Shown here piece after piece: positions 21,926-29,121 of a DNA stretch of 64,000 bases (positions are counted from its first letter, which is position 1; each line of letters begins with the position of its first letter). The position numbers and the translations under genes are program-made. The stretch is from Enchytraeus crypticus. Taxonomy: Eukaryota; Annelida; Clitellata; Enchytraeida; Enchytraeidae. The notes beneath the pieces are model-generated. The model did not search any database. It was not told the DNA's origin and worked only from the letters and a program-made list of their open reading frames with translations. The stretch is from the NCBI GenBank assembly GCA_905160935.1, contig CAJHZI010000263.1, forward strand, positions 398,501 through 462,500, given 5' to 3'.

Positions 21926-21990
21926 GACAGAGAGAGAGAGAGACAGAGAGAGAGAGTCTTATATAGGAACGGAGCACTGCTTTATAATGG
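21711..21990. repeat. GA-rich array with three copies of the Kelch A coding end
   Basis: (GA)n stretches separated by three related blocks near 21711-21745, 21840-21875 and 21957-21992, each with GGAGCACTGC or GAAGCACTGC followed by AATGG and GGCAG or GGCA. The rightmost block is the last codons and stop of the Kelch exon. Confidence 0.85.
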
Positions 21991-24395
21991 CAGCAGGCAG
22001 AGAGCTATGATGACTCCACATGGCTTCTTCTTTACCAGAGATAAACTCACCAACAGACAGAGTTTTTATCTCACCACCATCCGCCTTGACAAAGGACTCG
22101 CTTTCTGCGTCACTGGAACTAGATGACGATGATGATGACAAGTAAAGTACATTGTCTACAAGACTTACATCAAATTGTTCCACATCTGTCTTCAGGTTTT
22201 CCCTTTCCTCCCATTTCTTCAACTTGAAGTCGTACAGATAACACGTGTGTTGACCAATCAGAATTGCTTGATTTTTAAATGTAACAGCTTTCATTGACGA
22301 ATAGCAGTCAGGCATCTCTTCACCCTCATTACAACTTCCATAAACTGTGTTATATATTTGGACGTTATCCAATGGTCTACCTCTATCACATCCTCCAAAC
22401 ACAAAGATTTCATTACCAAACGTAGAGCAAGCTGCATCATGTACGGCACTGTTAAGATTGCCTACCTCATTCCAGGTGTTAGAATCGACATCATAGCAAA
22501 GAACGCTCTCAAGTGATTTCTCTTTATCTTCACTCCAGCCTCCGAGCACGTACATCTTCTTCCTTTCCACTGAAACAGCACAATGTTTACTTCGACCTAA
22601 CGGCAGGTCCGCACATTTTCTCCATTCGTCGTTGCCGTTCACTGATCGCTTCCACATTTCCTTCAAACTTTTTCCAATTCCCACAACATACAGGGAATCA
22701 TCCATCAAACACAAAGCCGATCCTTCATGAACCACAGGAAGTCCTGCTAGGCTGCTCAGACGCCAATGGTCTCTCCTCTTCCCGTCAATTAGCACCAGAG
22801 TCTGACATTTTTCGAGCGACCCAATGGCGGCGATGTATTTTCCTACAAATATGAACAGCAAAAAATAGAAAGTAAACACTCATTATAGTGAATGATCAAC
22901 TATGTTGATATCTATCACATTTTAATACCACACGTTTAAACCGTTAGGCAATTTAGACCATTATCCGTATAGCCAGTCCAGTGAATGTCAGAGATTTTAC
23001 TCTCATATCAGCGCGGCCGGGATTCGAACCCACGACCAATAAAACTGTACAGGTCAAAGTTTAGATAAAATTGTTTCAAGATAAGTGCTTAAGTTCAAAA
23101 AGTGTTTGTATATTTCTATTATTTTGCTTAAATATTGAATGCGTCTCTAATCTTTACCCTTAAATTAATCAAAATCCTTACTGATGAGCAAATATTAAAT
23201 AATTAGGAGAGCCAAGTGGCGAAACTCTGATCCCAAAGTCATGCATTGGCAAACAGTTTGAACAAAAGATAAAATCATATGAAGATATTTTAGCTATGTA
23301 ATATTACCGATAGCTATATAATATACCAACATCAGGATTTGAACCCCTCACATACAGATCCGCGGTCGAGTATCTTAATGACATCGCAACTGGCTCCAGT
23401 CAGTGGCGATGTCAGCAAGATACTCGACCGCGGATCAGTATGTGCGGGGTTCAAATCCGGGCTCGCCCGTCACTGACAGCGCTTTCGAGTGAGAAAACTG
23501 ACGTTAACATAATATTTTTTATATCTTTATATACCACCCGTGCTACATGAAGTACCAACCTGCTTCTGTATTTGTATTAGGTGTTGGAATAGGACCCAGT
23601 TCTAATAATGAAATTTTCTTTTCATTATTTTCTGTATCATGAAGACGTCTGCTTCTTTTAATTCTCCTGACACACAAGTAGACCACTAGAGCTCCCAGAA
23701 TCAACAGTAGCAGAACAACAACAACCACTAGGATGGTCGTCGTTAAAGAGCTTTCATCAGTCGATGCGGCAACACCTAGAGAGTCAGTTGTTGGTGAACC
23801 CTCTGCGGATGCTTGATCATAGAGAACTTGTGCTATAAATATAACAAATATTGATAATAATAATAATAATAATGATGATGATAATAATAATAATAATTTA
23901 TTCTTTTAAGCCGATTGATGATCTCGAGTAGCCGGGCGGCGATTCAGCGTATTGCTAGAATCGTTTTTATCAAACCCCAGGTTCTTTATACCGGGGTAAA
24001 AAATTTAAAAAAATATAAATATAAAAAATAATAATAATAATAATAAAGGTTTAACACCTCATACAAGGATGCTGTCAGGGAAGTTCAAATGGTCCAAGAG
24101 CAAAATTTAAGTTACTGTAAAATTAGGCTAAACTGTTTGACTGCTTTGTTTCCAGTCAATGGCAAAATGGATGAAACGGATTGATGAGACAAACCTGTCT
24201 GTATTTTTAATGAATAGGCTCTGTTTTAAATAAATGGCATTTCTCGTAAAAATTAATTTATAATATTTTGCTAAATATATGATTTAGTCAATATTTTAAA
24301 CGATATTTAGCTAATTTTCTCTCATTAATGAGGGCATCAAAGAAAAGAAGTTGATCCAGTTGAAAAAATGTTGATCATCATCATCATCATCATCG

Positions 24396-24427
<32 letters not shown>

Positions 24428-27400: not shown

Positions 27401-27918
27401 CTTGAGCCCAAAAAGAAATCAACTAGCCAGTTATTTATGCAGGCAGGTATATCAAGAACAGAATATTTCTCCATGAGAGTATAGTGCCTGATTGCATCTA
27501 ATGCCTTACTAAAATCAAACACAAGAACTCTAACAAAGTCACTATTAGTAAGCACTACAGATATTTTATGGTAGAATGCAATAAGAGCACTTGCCGTACA
27601 GCCAGTAGGGCGGAACGCGAACTGATCATCAAAATAAGGAGATGATGGTGAACATAAAATGGCAGGATAGACATAGGCCTATGTTGAGATAACAATTATG
27701 ACAATGATGATGATGAAGAAGAAGAATATTATGAAGATCAATACGATGAAGATAATGGAGATGCTGAAGACGATGTTGATGAAGATTGTATTGATGATGA
27801 TTATGGTGATAAGTTGTTGAAGAAGAAGAAGAGGGTAACGATGACGGTAATAATGGTAATGATGATGAAGATGATGACAATAATGACAATAATAATAGTT
27901 ATTACATATATGTATAAC

Positions 27919-27980
<62 letters not shown>

Positions 27981-29121
27981 TGTACATATGTAATTTTGTA
28001 TGAATTTATTCTTTTTCTAGTGCACTATCTAAGGGCAGGTTCATGGATGGTATATAACTCTTCCAACCAATTCTATTCTCAGCCTTCCTTTTCATCTCTA
28101 CAGATTAATTTGTTATCAGCTAATCCAACATCCCATGTCTTGGCCTTCTTCTAACTCTTCTCCCTTTGAATTCTTCTTTCTGTTACATCCTTGAGTTGTG
28201 TATACCATTTAAAGCTTGGGGAAGGGCTTTTCCTGGCTCTATATATCATTTCATATTATATAGTATTATATAATTAACTGTGAGACTGAAATTTTGCAAT
28301 AGGATTGCACAAGAAAAAGCGGCCTTTGGTGATAGGAAAGAACTTTAAAAAATGTCTAAAGAAAGACACAAAGATAAAGATAGTGAAAACTTTGGTTTGG
28401 ATCGCACTATTGTATGGATATGAAAAATGGACCTTAAGGAAGGAAGATATTAGGAAACTGGAGGCATTGGAAATGTGGATTTTGGAGAAGAATGGAGAGG
28501 ATTAGCTGGACTCAAAAGGTTACAAATGAGGAAGTTCTGGAGGGAGTTGGCATAGATAGACAGTTGATAAATGTATTAAGAAATAGGAAAAAGAGTTGGA
28601 TAGGACACATTCTAAGGGGAGAGGTCTATTAAAAATTTAAGATATGTTACAGAAGGTAGAATGGAAGGAAAAAGAGGCAGAGGCAGGCCGAAAGTAGGTA
28701 TGTTAGATGATTTAAAGTCCCACACATAGGCCCCTATGTTGTAATGAAGAGGAAAGCTGAAACCAGAGAAGAGTGTAGGCGTTATATATTATGGACCTGC
28801 CAGTTGACAATGCACTATAGAGAATTAAATAAATATTTGATGTGACAGTTTCTAATTTCTTGCCACAGGACAATTCTAGAATATTTTCAACATATCTAAA
28901 TCGTATATACCTTGATAGATAGTATGCCAGTAATACTCCTTCCCATCCGCTCTCTCTATCTCCCACATGACAGGTTTGGAGAGATTTGTGTAGCACGAGA
29001 GAACAACGTGAGAGCCATGACGAGTGATCACGTCTGCTGGCTCCCTTGTTAGAATTGAATTAACTACTTGTAGAAAAGCTAACCACAAAAAAGTGGTAGT
29101 TATCAAACTATGAAGAATCAT
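21959..29121 (-). CDS. Ig-Ig-TM-Kelch receptor, copy A (5 exons, 656 aa)
   Basis: Exons: 28911-29121, 26092-26298, 24994-25389, 23560-23832, 21959-22842; every intron is phase 1. Exon 1 encodes a signal peptide (hydrophobic LITTTFLWLAFLQVV) and the first half of an Ig fold ([11 protein letters not shown]). Exon 2 completes it with [15 protein letters not shown]. Exon 3 is a second Ig-like domain with Cys in INCSLPYRG and ARVRCEVAG. Exon 4 has a Ser/Thr stalk, a TM helix (about 305-326, ILVVVVVLLLLILGALVVYL) and a basic stop-transfer RRIKRSRR. Exon 5 (363-656) is a Kelch domain with about six repeats, including [29 protein letters not shown] and VQIYNTV; a poly-Ser/acidic loop lies in the last. 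No BTB or BACK domain is present. By topology the Kelch propeller is cytosolic. Function unknown; an adhesion or recognition receptor with a cytosolic protein-binding propeller is an inference. The phase match and the paralogue support a single transcript, but cDNA is not available to me. Confidence 0.85.
22875..23035 (-). mobile_element. tRNA-derived SINE, family A, truncated at its promoter end
   Basis: In intron 4 of Kelch receptor A, 33 bases upstream of exon 5. Holds the tail, AGAGATTTTACTCTCATATC and the B-box GGGATTCGAACCCACGA, where the match stops. Confidence 0.85.
23330..23525. mobile_element. Inverted pair of family B SINE heads
   Basis: A minus-strand tRNA-like head (23335-23396) is followed head to head by a plus-strand copy (about 23400-23520). 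Both share GATACTCGACCGCGGATC and the B-box, so the transcript can fold on itself. Confidence 0.85.
24368..24465. repeat. (CAT)n microsatellite
   Basis: About 95 bases of ATC trinucleotide with a few GTC interruptions, the tail of a minus-strand family C fragment (24460-24505). Confidence 0.9.
24575..24990 (+). mobile_element. 3' end of a non-LTR retrotransposon (family LINE-1)
   Basis: Broken frames give [50 protein letters not shown] and [11 protein letters not shown], the C-terminal region typical of many invertebrate endonuclease/reverse transcriptase elements. It ends GCAGTGCACTAAGAGAGA, directly against the donor of receptor A exon 3 (24993). Related copies: 28290-28825 (+), 28015-28245 (-), 42795-43025 (-), 48260-48430 (-), 62135-62455 (-), and a 50-base end at 60555-60615. 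Confidence 0.85.
25855..26010 (-). mobile_element. Dispersed short element, family C
   Basis: Minus-strand copy in intron 2 of receptor A: TCATCTTCCCTTGAATCCC, GACTGTGTCAAATCC, CTGTCCTACACC, AGCCAACCCC, ending near GGTGGCTAGGCGCTC. Confidence 0.75.
26320..27640 (-). mobile_element. Non-LTR retrotransposon fragment with reverse transcriptase (Jockey/CR1-like), 5' truncated
   Basis: On the minus strand the reading frames, broken by stops and shifts, give FRPTGCTASALIAFYH, VLVFDFSKALDAIRH and DIPACINNWLVDFF (RT palm), and further on ILSKLTYASKFWRGFTEA and FSEIAEKADRRLFS (C-terminal end). The 3' end is near 26320 with a (TTA/TAA)n tail. It lies in intron 1 of receptor A, same orientation as the gene. 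Confidence 0.85.
27680..27990. repeat. GATGAT-rich and (AT)n microsatellites
   Basis: GAAGATGATG-type repeats to 27890, then about 60 bases of pure AT (27925-27980). Open frames across it are low-complexity artefacts. Confidence 0.85.
28015..28245 (-). mobile_element. Non-LTR retrotransposon 3' end (family LINE-1), minus strand
   Basis: Starts TAGTGCACTATCTAAGG and reads as a diverged reverse complement of the 24575 copy. It forms an inverted pair with the plus-strand copy at 28290. Confidence 0.75.
28290..28825 (+). mobile_element. Non-LTR retrotransposon 3' end (family LINE-1)
   Basis: Longest copy of this end: KTLVWIALLYGYEKWTLRK, IRKLEALEMWILEKNGE, RNRKKSWIGHILRG and [18 protein letters not shown] coding remnants with frame breaks. 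Ends with ATGGACCTGCCAGTTGAC and TGCACTATAGAGA, about 85 bases from exon 1 of receptor A. Confidence 0.85.

Follow-up and report, generated by a model that had tools for sequence, protein, structure and literature searches.

Two tandem genes, A and B, lie on the minus strand of the window analysed here, a stretch of 64,000 nucleotides from the annelid Enchytraeus crypticus (assembly GCA_905160935.1, contig CAJHZI010000263.1, positions 398,501 to 462,500 of the forward strand). They are probably single-pass type I receptors with an immunoglobulin (Ig) ectodomain, a transmembrane (TM) helix and a cytosolic Kelch propeller of the TRIM kind, members of a family that exchanges its modules and works in a butyrophilin-like way. 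The exon structure, the domains, the paralogues, a likely donor family and the different modules behind close Ig paralogues could be established from the DNA itself, at the level of gene prediction.

Structure of genes A and B

In gene A (21959-29121), five exons can be spliced into a single reading frame of 656 residues, and all four introns are GT-AG introns of phase 1. Exon 1 (28911..29121) holds the start codon, a signal peptide and the first half of a V-set Ig domain, and is followed by a phase-1 donor with its GT at 28910. The second half of this domain, with the motif DAGTYRC, was recognised by Pfam in exon 2 (26092..26298). A second Ig-like domain, tentatively assigned as Ig, was placed in exon 3 (24994..25389) by splice frame and cysteine pattern. 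Exon 4 (23560..23832) encodes a stalk, the TM helix found in a hydropathy scan, the basic stretch VRRIKRSRR and a linker, while exon 5 (21959..22842) encodes the Kelch propeller, identified by Pfam, structure model and Foldseek, and the stop codon. The Ig-TM-Kelch exon arrangement on the minus strand is real. The initial annotation had described a signal peptide, a TM helix with basic stop-transfer and a Kelch domain joined by phase-1 introns; all five exons are where it placed them, and its coordinates for the TM and Kelch exons were exact.

The hydropathy scan gives A and B each a single TM helix with a basic flank and a C-terminus predicted to be cytosolic. According to the positive-inside rule, the basic flank of a TM helix faces the cytosol, and because VRRIKRSRR stands directly after the helix, the Kelch side of gene A would be cytosolic. 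The juxtamembrane linker of gene A has no tyrosine, and signalling through immunoreceptor tyrosine-based activation or inhibition motifs (ITAM, ITIM) in this linker therefore seems unlikely; that of gene B has one tyrosine near the membrane. Read-through of intron 4 would end gene A a few residues past the TM exon (AGWYFM-stop). Intron 1 is 2.6 kb long in gene A versus 0.33 kb in gene B. The longer intron has open fragments that look retroelement-like by eye (26639-26905 and 27391-27678), and Pfam found no match in the fragment 27391-27678.

Gene B (31902-37152, minus strand) is a tandem paralogue that matches gene A in all five exons, in their order and phases and in their open frames, and encodes 649 residues. 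Its exon 1 (36942..37152; signal peptide and half of the V-set domain) and exon 2 (36401..36607; rest of the V-set) have 91.5% and 86.0% nucleotide identity to those of gene A. The values are 64.1% for exon 3 (35424..35819; second Ig-like domain), 62.7% for exon 4 (33666..33893; stalk, TM helix and basic stretch) and 82.6% for exon 5 (31902..32809; Kelch propeller, also recognised by Pfam, and stop codon). An assembly artefact was ruled out, since the second copy is complete and lies 2.8 kb off, and family members are found on several other contigs. The ratio of nonsynonymous to synonymous rates (dN/dS) between A and B was 0.26 for the first Ig domain (bootstrap interval 0.12-0.52), 0.35 for the second (0.19-0.57) and 0.48 for Kelch (0.34-0.67). 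The two Ig domains and the Kelch domain are under purifying selection; the TM part is not demonstrably so. Identity between the copies is uneven along the genes, being 0.77-0.96 in exons 1-2, 0.90-0.98 in the middle of Kelch and 0.44-0.78 in the second Ig domain, TM, linker and Kelch start, a pattern that looks like patches of gene conversion.

For the ectodomain, the initial annotation had claimed two Ig-like domains. The first of them is well founded: Pfam V-set matched residues 28-113 of the gene A protein with 38.3 bits and gene B with 37.6, at a cut-off of 26. The second stays tentative. The Pfam C2-set_2 match was below the cut-off in both A and B, a profile built from eight second domains of the family found no solved structure at E ≤ 0.1, and the model was poor (mean predicted local distance difference test, pLDDT, 60.8), with no Foldseek fold match at E ≤ 0.001. 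All eight aligned members nevertheless share two invariant cysteines 67 residues apart and a third cysteine upstream. A tryptophan stands between the two cysteines in 6 of the 8; gene A has a cysteine there, the tryptophan being lost. A homologue search with the whole protein gave 0 matches among the 7990 most word-sharing candidates that were scored, which low-complexity words may have crowded.

The Kelch domain was clearly recognised. Pfam Kelch_1 reached 66.8 bits in gene A against a cut-off of 20.1, and the structure model of its Kelch exon had a pLDDT of 76.9 and a predicted template modelling score (pTM) of 0.81. Foldseek with this model returned designed Kelch propellers first and then KEAP1, KLHL12 and KLHL20, with E down to 1e-16 and TM-scores of about 0.75, and phmmer likewise matched KEAP1 and other KLHL chains. 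The exon thus models as a KEAP1/KLHL-like propeller, while a serine-rich stretch near the C-terminus of the model is of low confidence, and closure of the propeller there is not certain. Searching for homologues of the Kelch domain gave 7 matches, all distant Kelch proteins, the highest identity being 32% over a quarter of the query. BTB, BACK, RING and B-box were absent from the 25 of 27 Pfam families listed for gene A and from those listed for gene B, and no SPRY (B30.2) match was among the families listed for either gene.

The Kelch exon and TRIM-type genes

The genome itself (524 Mb, 802 contigs) was searched with the Kelch exon, and 69 matches were found, the two of the window included. 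We recorded the nearest upstream module of each match within 12 kb on the same strand, dropping it if another Kelch match intervened. This module was a TRIM exon in at least 45 cases, an Ig exon in 5 (A, B and three further loci, C, D and E) and neither in 19, fragments included. The 45 of 69 is a lower bound because 75 of at least 165 TRIM matches of the RING-B-box query were used, those omitted being mostly on contigs without Kelch matches. For example, the two joined exons of the TRIM-Kelch gene at locus L051 read RING, B-box, Kelch, the join being predicted. There is a large expansion of RING-B-box genes that end in a single Kelch exon, e.g. on contigs C339, C583, C366, C335 and C417.

Among the TRIM-linked loci scanned, 9 of 11 had the conserved end of the TRIM exon, and at eight of these nine it carried a phase-1 donor of the form GG(A/T) G followed by the GT of the intron; the ninth (L024) had no GT. 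Of 30 loci scanned for an acceptor, 23, including A and B, had a candidate phase-1 site right before the first Kelch strand; none passed the scan at L014, L016, L018, L027, L030, L032 and L035, of which L014 and L018 are the Kelch exons of D and E. Since donors and acceptors alike are of phase 1, joining such a Kelch exon to either the TM exon or the TRIM exon would keep the frame. The TRIM-type (RING-B-box) genes are thus the likely donor family of the Kelch module. Exon shuffling, by which the initial annotation had explained the receptor, is supported and becomes more specific: the same kind of Kelch exon closes TRIM-type genes, and it is joined there in phase 1 as well. Furthermore, a TRIM-Kelch gene (C583:194757 to 200713) stands just upstream of locus D, and the Kelch exons of the two are 93% identical; if a Kelch exon had recently been copied to a site next to an Ig gene, this is the arrangement to expect. 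On contig C247, the two Ig genes with macro domains that are described below are likewise flanked by TRIM exons.

An Ig receptor family with differing tails

Queries with Ig exon 2 from two members gave 28 genome matches, including A and B, and 32 genome matches. From the second search we took as core loci the 16 matches (of 32) with 63 or more of the 70 positions covered, and the downstream DNA was read at 14 of them, C333:288039 and C333:265124 being the two others. The single gene that had been noticed at the outset was thereby confirmed, but it turned out to be one of a family with 16 core loci and differing tails. Behind the 14 core loci we found Kelch in 5, an NHL-like propeller in 3, a macro domain in 2, a candidate coiled coil in 2 and no assigned module in 2. 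The Kelch-tailed loci are A, B, C (L041), D (L039) and E (L040), and the NHL-like ones are C333:277484 (L047), C333:303264 (L048) and C472:127416 (L050). Both macro-tailed loci lie on C247, where L042/L045 gave a Pfam Macro match of 71.2 bits and L053 was 65% identical over 127 residues. The candidate coiled coils are at C472:28880 and C472:37306. No tail was assigned at C333:430459, where assembly gaps follow the TM exon, or at C333:299246, where no propeller was seen before the next gene.

In L047, the TM helix and the NHL-like propeller (NHL 26.3 bits, cut-off 20) share one open frame of 556 codons, and the fusion of TM and propeller in this gene is therefore independent of splice prediction. 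For the propeller of L050, whose Pfam match was below the cut-off, the identification comes from 35% identity to the L047 propeller. L047 and L048 have a long linker between TM and propeller that differs between the two paralogues, with an Asp/Asn/Gln-rich repeat in L048. In gene C (on contig C366), two tandem Kelch exons (5892-6869 and 8673-9599 of L041), 93% identical to each other, lie behind one Ig-TM gene and are possible alternative last exons. The joins of its TM exon are tentative: past the TM helix, the best-scoring donor has the wrong phase, and only a weaker one, of phase 1, fits. Contigs C422, C514, C658, C272 and C329 carry a further set of V-type Ig exons, whose relation to exon 2 is more distant.

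One or several Ig-Kelch fusions

Of the 69 Kelch matches, 32 entered the Kelch tree, namely those of A and B, both of C and L011-L038 (28 loci). D and E fell inside the TRIM-linked clade, and A/B and C outside it on long branches. A single clade of all Ig-linked Kelch exons was rejected (p 0.00013), as were A/B with D/E (p 0.0026) and C with D/E (p 0.0090). The Ig tree was built from 12 of the 16 core loci, leaving out C472:37306, C333:299246, C333:288039 and C333:265124. In this tree the Kelch-tailed genes A and B paired with the macro-tailed C247 genes with support of 96/99, and both a clade of the Kelch-tailed Ig genes (p 0.00036) and A/B with D/E (p 0.0037) were rejected. The program warned of long branches that meet in the Ig tree, and we have therefore rested tail exchange on the well-supported pair of A/B (Kelch) and C247 (macro). 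In a 10-row tree from which E and C472:127416 were also left out, this pairing kept support of 92/97. A single ancestral Ig-Kelch fusion for all copies is thus rejected by both trees when D and E are counted.

Proposed working and alternative explanations

The plan of the receptor would be a signal peptide, an IgV domain, a second Ig-like domain, a stalk, a TM helix, a short basic linker and a cytosolic Kelch propeller. Within the Ig receptor family, the exons for the cytosolic modules would be exchanged. The propeller, which takes the substrate-binding position in TRIM-type ligases, would bind a cytosolic ligand or partner, and this binding would be coupled to the Ig ectodomain at the surface, signalling either inside-out, as BTN3A1 does, or outside-in by recruitment. 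A role in immunity or in self/non-self recognition would be the most likely one. By analogy, we infer that the Kelch propeller may do here what B30.2 does in butyrophilins. More tentatively, with odds somewhat against it, the lineage may have a butyrophilin-like system of its own: the Ig family would have sampled Kelch, NHL-like, macro and perhaps coiled-coil modules through exchange with the expanded TRIM-type genes and others, cytosolic states would be displayed through surface Ig domains, and receptors and ligases would share ligands.

Several points weigh against a module-exchanging family of Ig-TM-Kelch receptors. All multi-exon joins are predictions, and the function is assigned by analogy. 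The dN/dS of the stalk, TM and juxtamembrane part was 0.62 (0.25-1.13), so that constraint is not significant there. Between the second Ig domain and Kelch of D and E, a TM exon was looked for and not found, and no Kelch acceptor passed the scan; the two may be secreted, nascent or unfused, and we do not claim them as TM receptors. The p values that include them accordingly lean on uncertain fusions. With A, B and C considered, grouping A/B with C was not rejected by the Kelch tree (p 0.334), and the 10-row Ig tree rejected their clade at no better than p 0.023. At the macro loci, L048, L050 and the coiled-coil loci, it is the order along the DNA that links TM and module. Finally, no homologue of the gene B ectodomain was found at E ≤ 0.001 in about 5.8 billion proteins by a search that needs shared 5-residue words.

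The joins, being predicted, leave room for two adjoining transcription units, i.e. a short-tailed Ig-TM receptor and a separate Kelch gene or a leftover Kelch exon of the TRIM type. Most Kelch exons of the genome do lie behind TRIM exons, D and E combine Ig and Kelch exons with no TM exon found between them, and the Kelch of D closely resembles that of the TRIM-type neighbour just upstream. However, phase-1 splice sites agree and frames stay open in both tandem copies of the window, the Kelch part is under purifying selection, and the paralogue L047 has TM and propeller in one frame. Nor was a separate start codon found for the Kelch exon, which had been named at the outset as something that would speak for separate genes: in neither A nor B does an ATG stand ahead of the first blade, and the first methionine lies within the exon, 46 residues from its beginning in A and 16 in B, which disfavours an independent Kelch gene. 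We consider two units unlikely. It is very improbable that A and B, as chimaeras or copies in decay, yield no functional product. The cysteine in place of the Ig tryptophan in gene A and the retroelement-like fragment in its long first intron would suit such decay, but ten exons have stayed open in two copies, and dN/dS over the whole mature protein is 0.45 (0.36-0.55), below 1.

The main rival is a receptor for adhesion or signalling from outside to inside, in which Kelch would be a cytoskeletal or scaffold anchor and no immune role would exist. Kelch propellers bind many partners, actin among them, and the gene A linker without tyrosine, with no ITAM or ITIM in it, would be in keeping with an anchor; the linker of gene B has its one tyrosine. 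Against this, modules shared with TRIM genes, macro domains, tandem expansion and the lack of a homologue elsewhere fit immune families better, although this is an argument from pattern. The initial annotation had inferred a surface sensor whose propeller would bind protein or actin; nothing in the present results points to actin, and we regard a pure adhesion receptor as rather unlikely, if less so than two separate units. For the butyrophilin-like receptor that we prefer, the close ectodomains with different tails (Kelch in A/B, macro on C247) are a natural experiment in which the roles of the tails are directly comparable. Since one genome encodes the same propeller on receptors as well as on ligase-like proteins, the shared-ligand hypothesis is testable too. 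If true, the separate assembly of another such family, around a different TRIM-type domain, would suggest a repeatable design, not a vertebrate oddity.

Other coding pieces in the window

On the plus strand, a piece of an ANF-receptor ligand-binding domain at 43.3-44.5 kb and a kinase-homology piece at 56105-56458 are probably parts of a receptor guanylate cyclase. An exon for the C-terminal domain of an acyl-CoA dehydrogenase lies on the minus strand at 13416-13826.

Comparison with known systems

Among open-licence PMC papers, with subscription papers and preprints outside the scope, we found no description of Ig-Kelch receptors, in agreement with the initial annotation, which knew of no described family with Ig domains, a TM helix and a cytosolic Kelch domain. 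Attractin and MEGF8 are membrane proteins with an extracellular Kelch domain. They are like the present genes in being membrane proteins with a Kelch-type propeller, but this type was rejected, as the Kelch exon here follows the TM exon. The KLHL proteins (KEAP1, KLHL12, KLHL20) resemble A and B in propeller fold, as seen with Foldseek, and in the phmmer matches. BTB-BACK before Kelch is the mark of KLHL proteins, and with no BTB or BACK among the Pfam families listed, the KLHL type was rejected as well.

The TRIM proteins, also called RBCC and including TRIM-NHL, share a C-terminal propeller with the genes described here, and RING-B-box genes of the same genome end in the same family of Kelch exons, whereas A and B have neither RING nor B-box among the Pfam families listed. 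A TRIM class with RING, B-box and Kelch was likewise not found described in the open-licence papers, and a text search of a survey of TRIM diversification (PMC3503706) did not find the word kelch. The exchange of a TRIM C-terminal exon with another class of immune receptor has a parallel in zebrafish, where B30.2, encoded by one exon, was exchanged between TRIM and NLR genes by exon shuffling (finTRIM/NLR-B30.2; PMC2657112). The present case differs in the recipient, a transmembrane Ig receptor, and in the module, Kelch. NLRs are cytosolic.

To our knowledge, it is in the butyrophilins that an Ig receptor carries a TRIM-type domain inside the cell and reports cytosolic ligands outward. Their ectodomain is of the B7 type, with an N-terminal IgV and an IgC domain. 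In BTN3A1, the cytosolic B30.2 domain binds phosphoantigens, which leads to a change recognised at the surface; B30.2 is also the C-terminal domain of many TRIM proteins, and BTN1A1 has a juxtamembrane coiled coil (PMC8968916). A and B are not true butyrophilins, as B30.2 (PRY-SPRY) was looked for and Kelch was found instead. In the present family, Kelch, an NHL-like propeller or a macro domain takes the place of B30.2, no relationship between the ectodomains was found at E ≤ 0.001, and the tails differ among close paralogues. What is alike is a V-set Ig domain, a TM helix and a domain of the TRIM C-terminal type, cytosolic in butyrophilins and predicted to be so here, that is encoded by one exon, B30.2 there and Kelch here. 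As far as structure tells, A and B would work like a butyrophilin.

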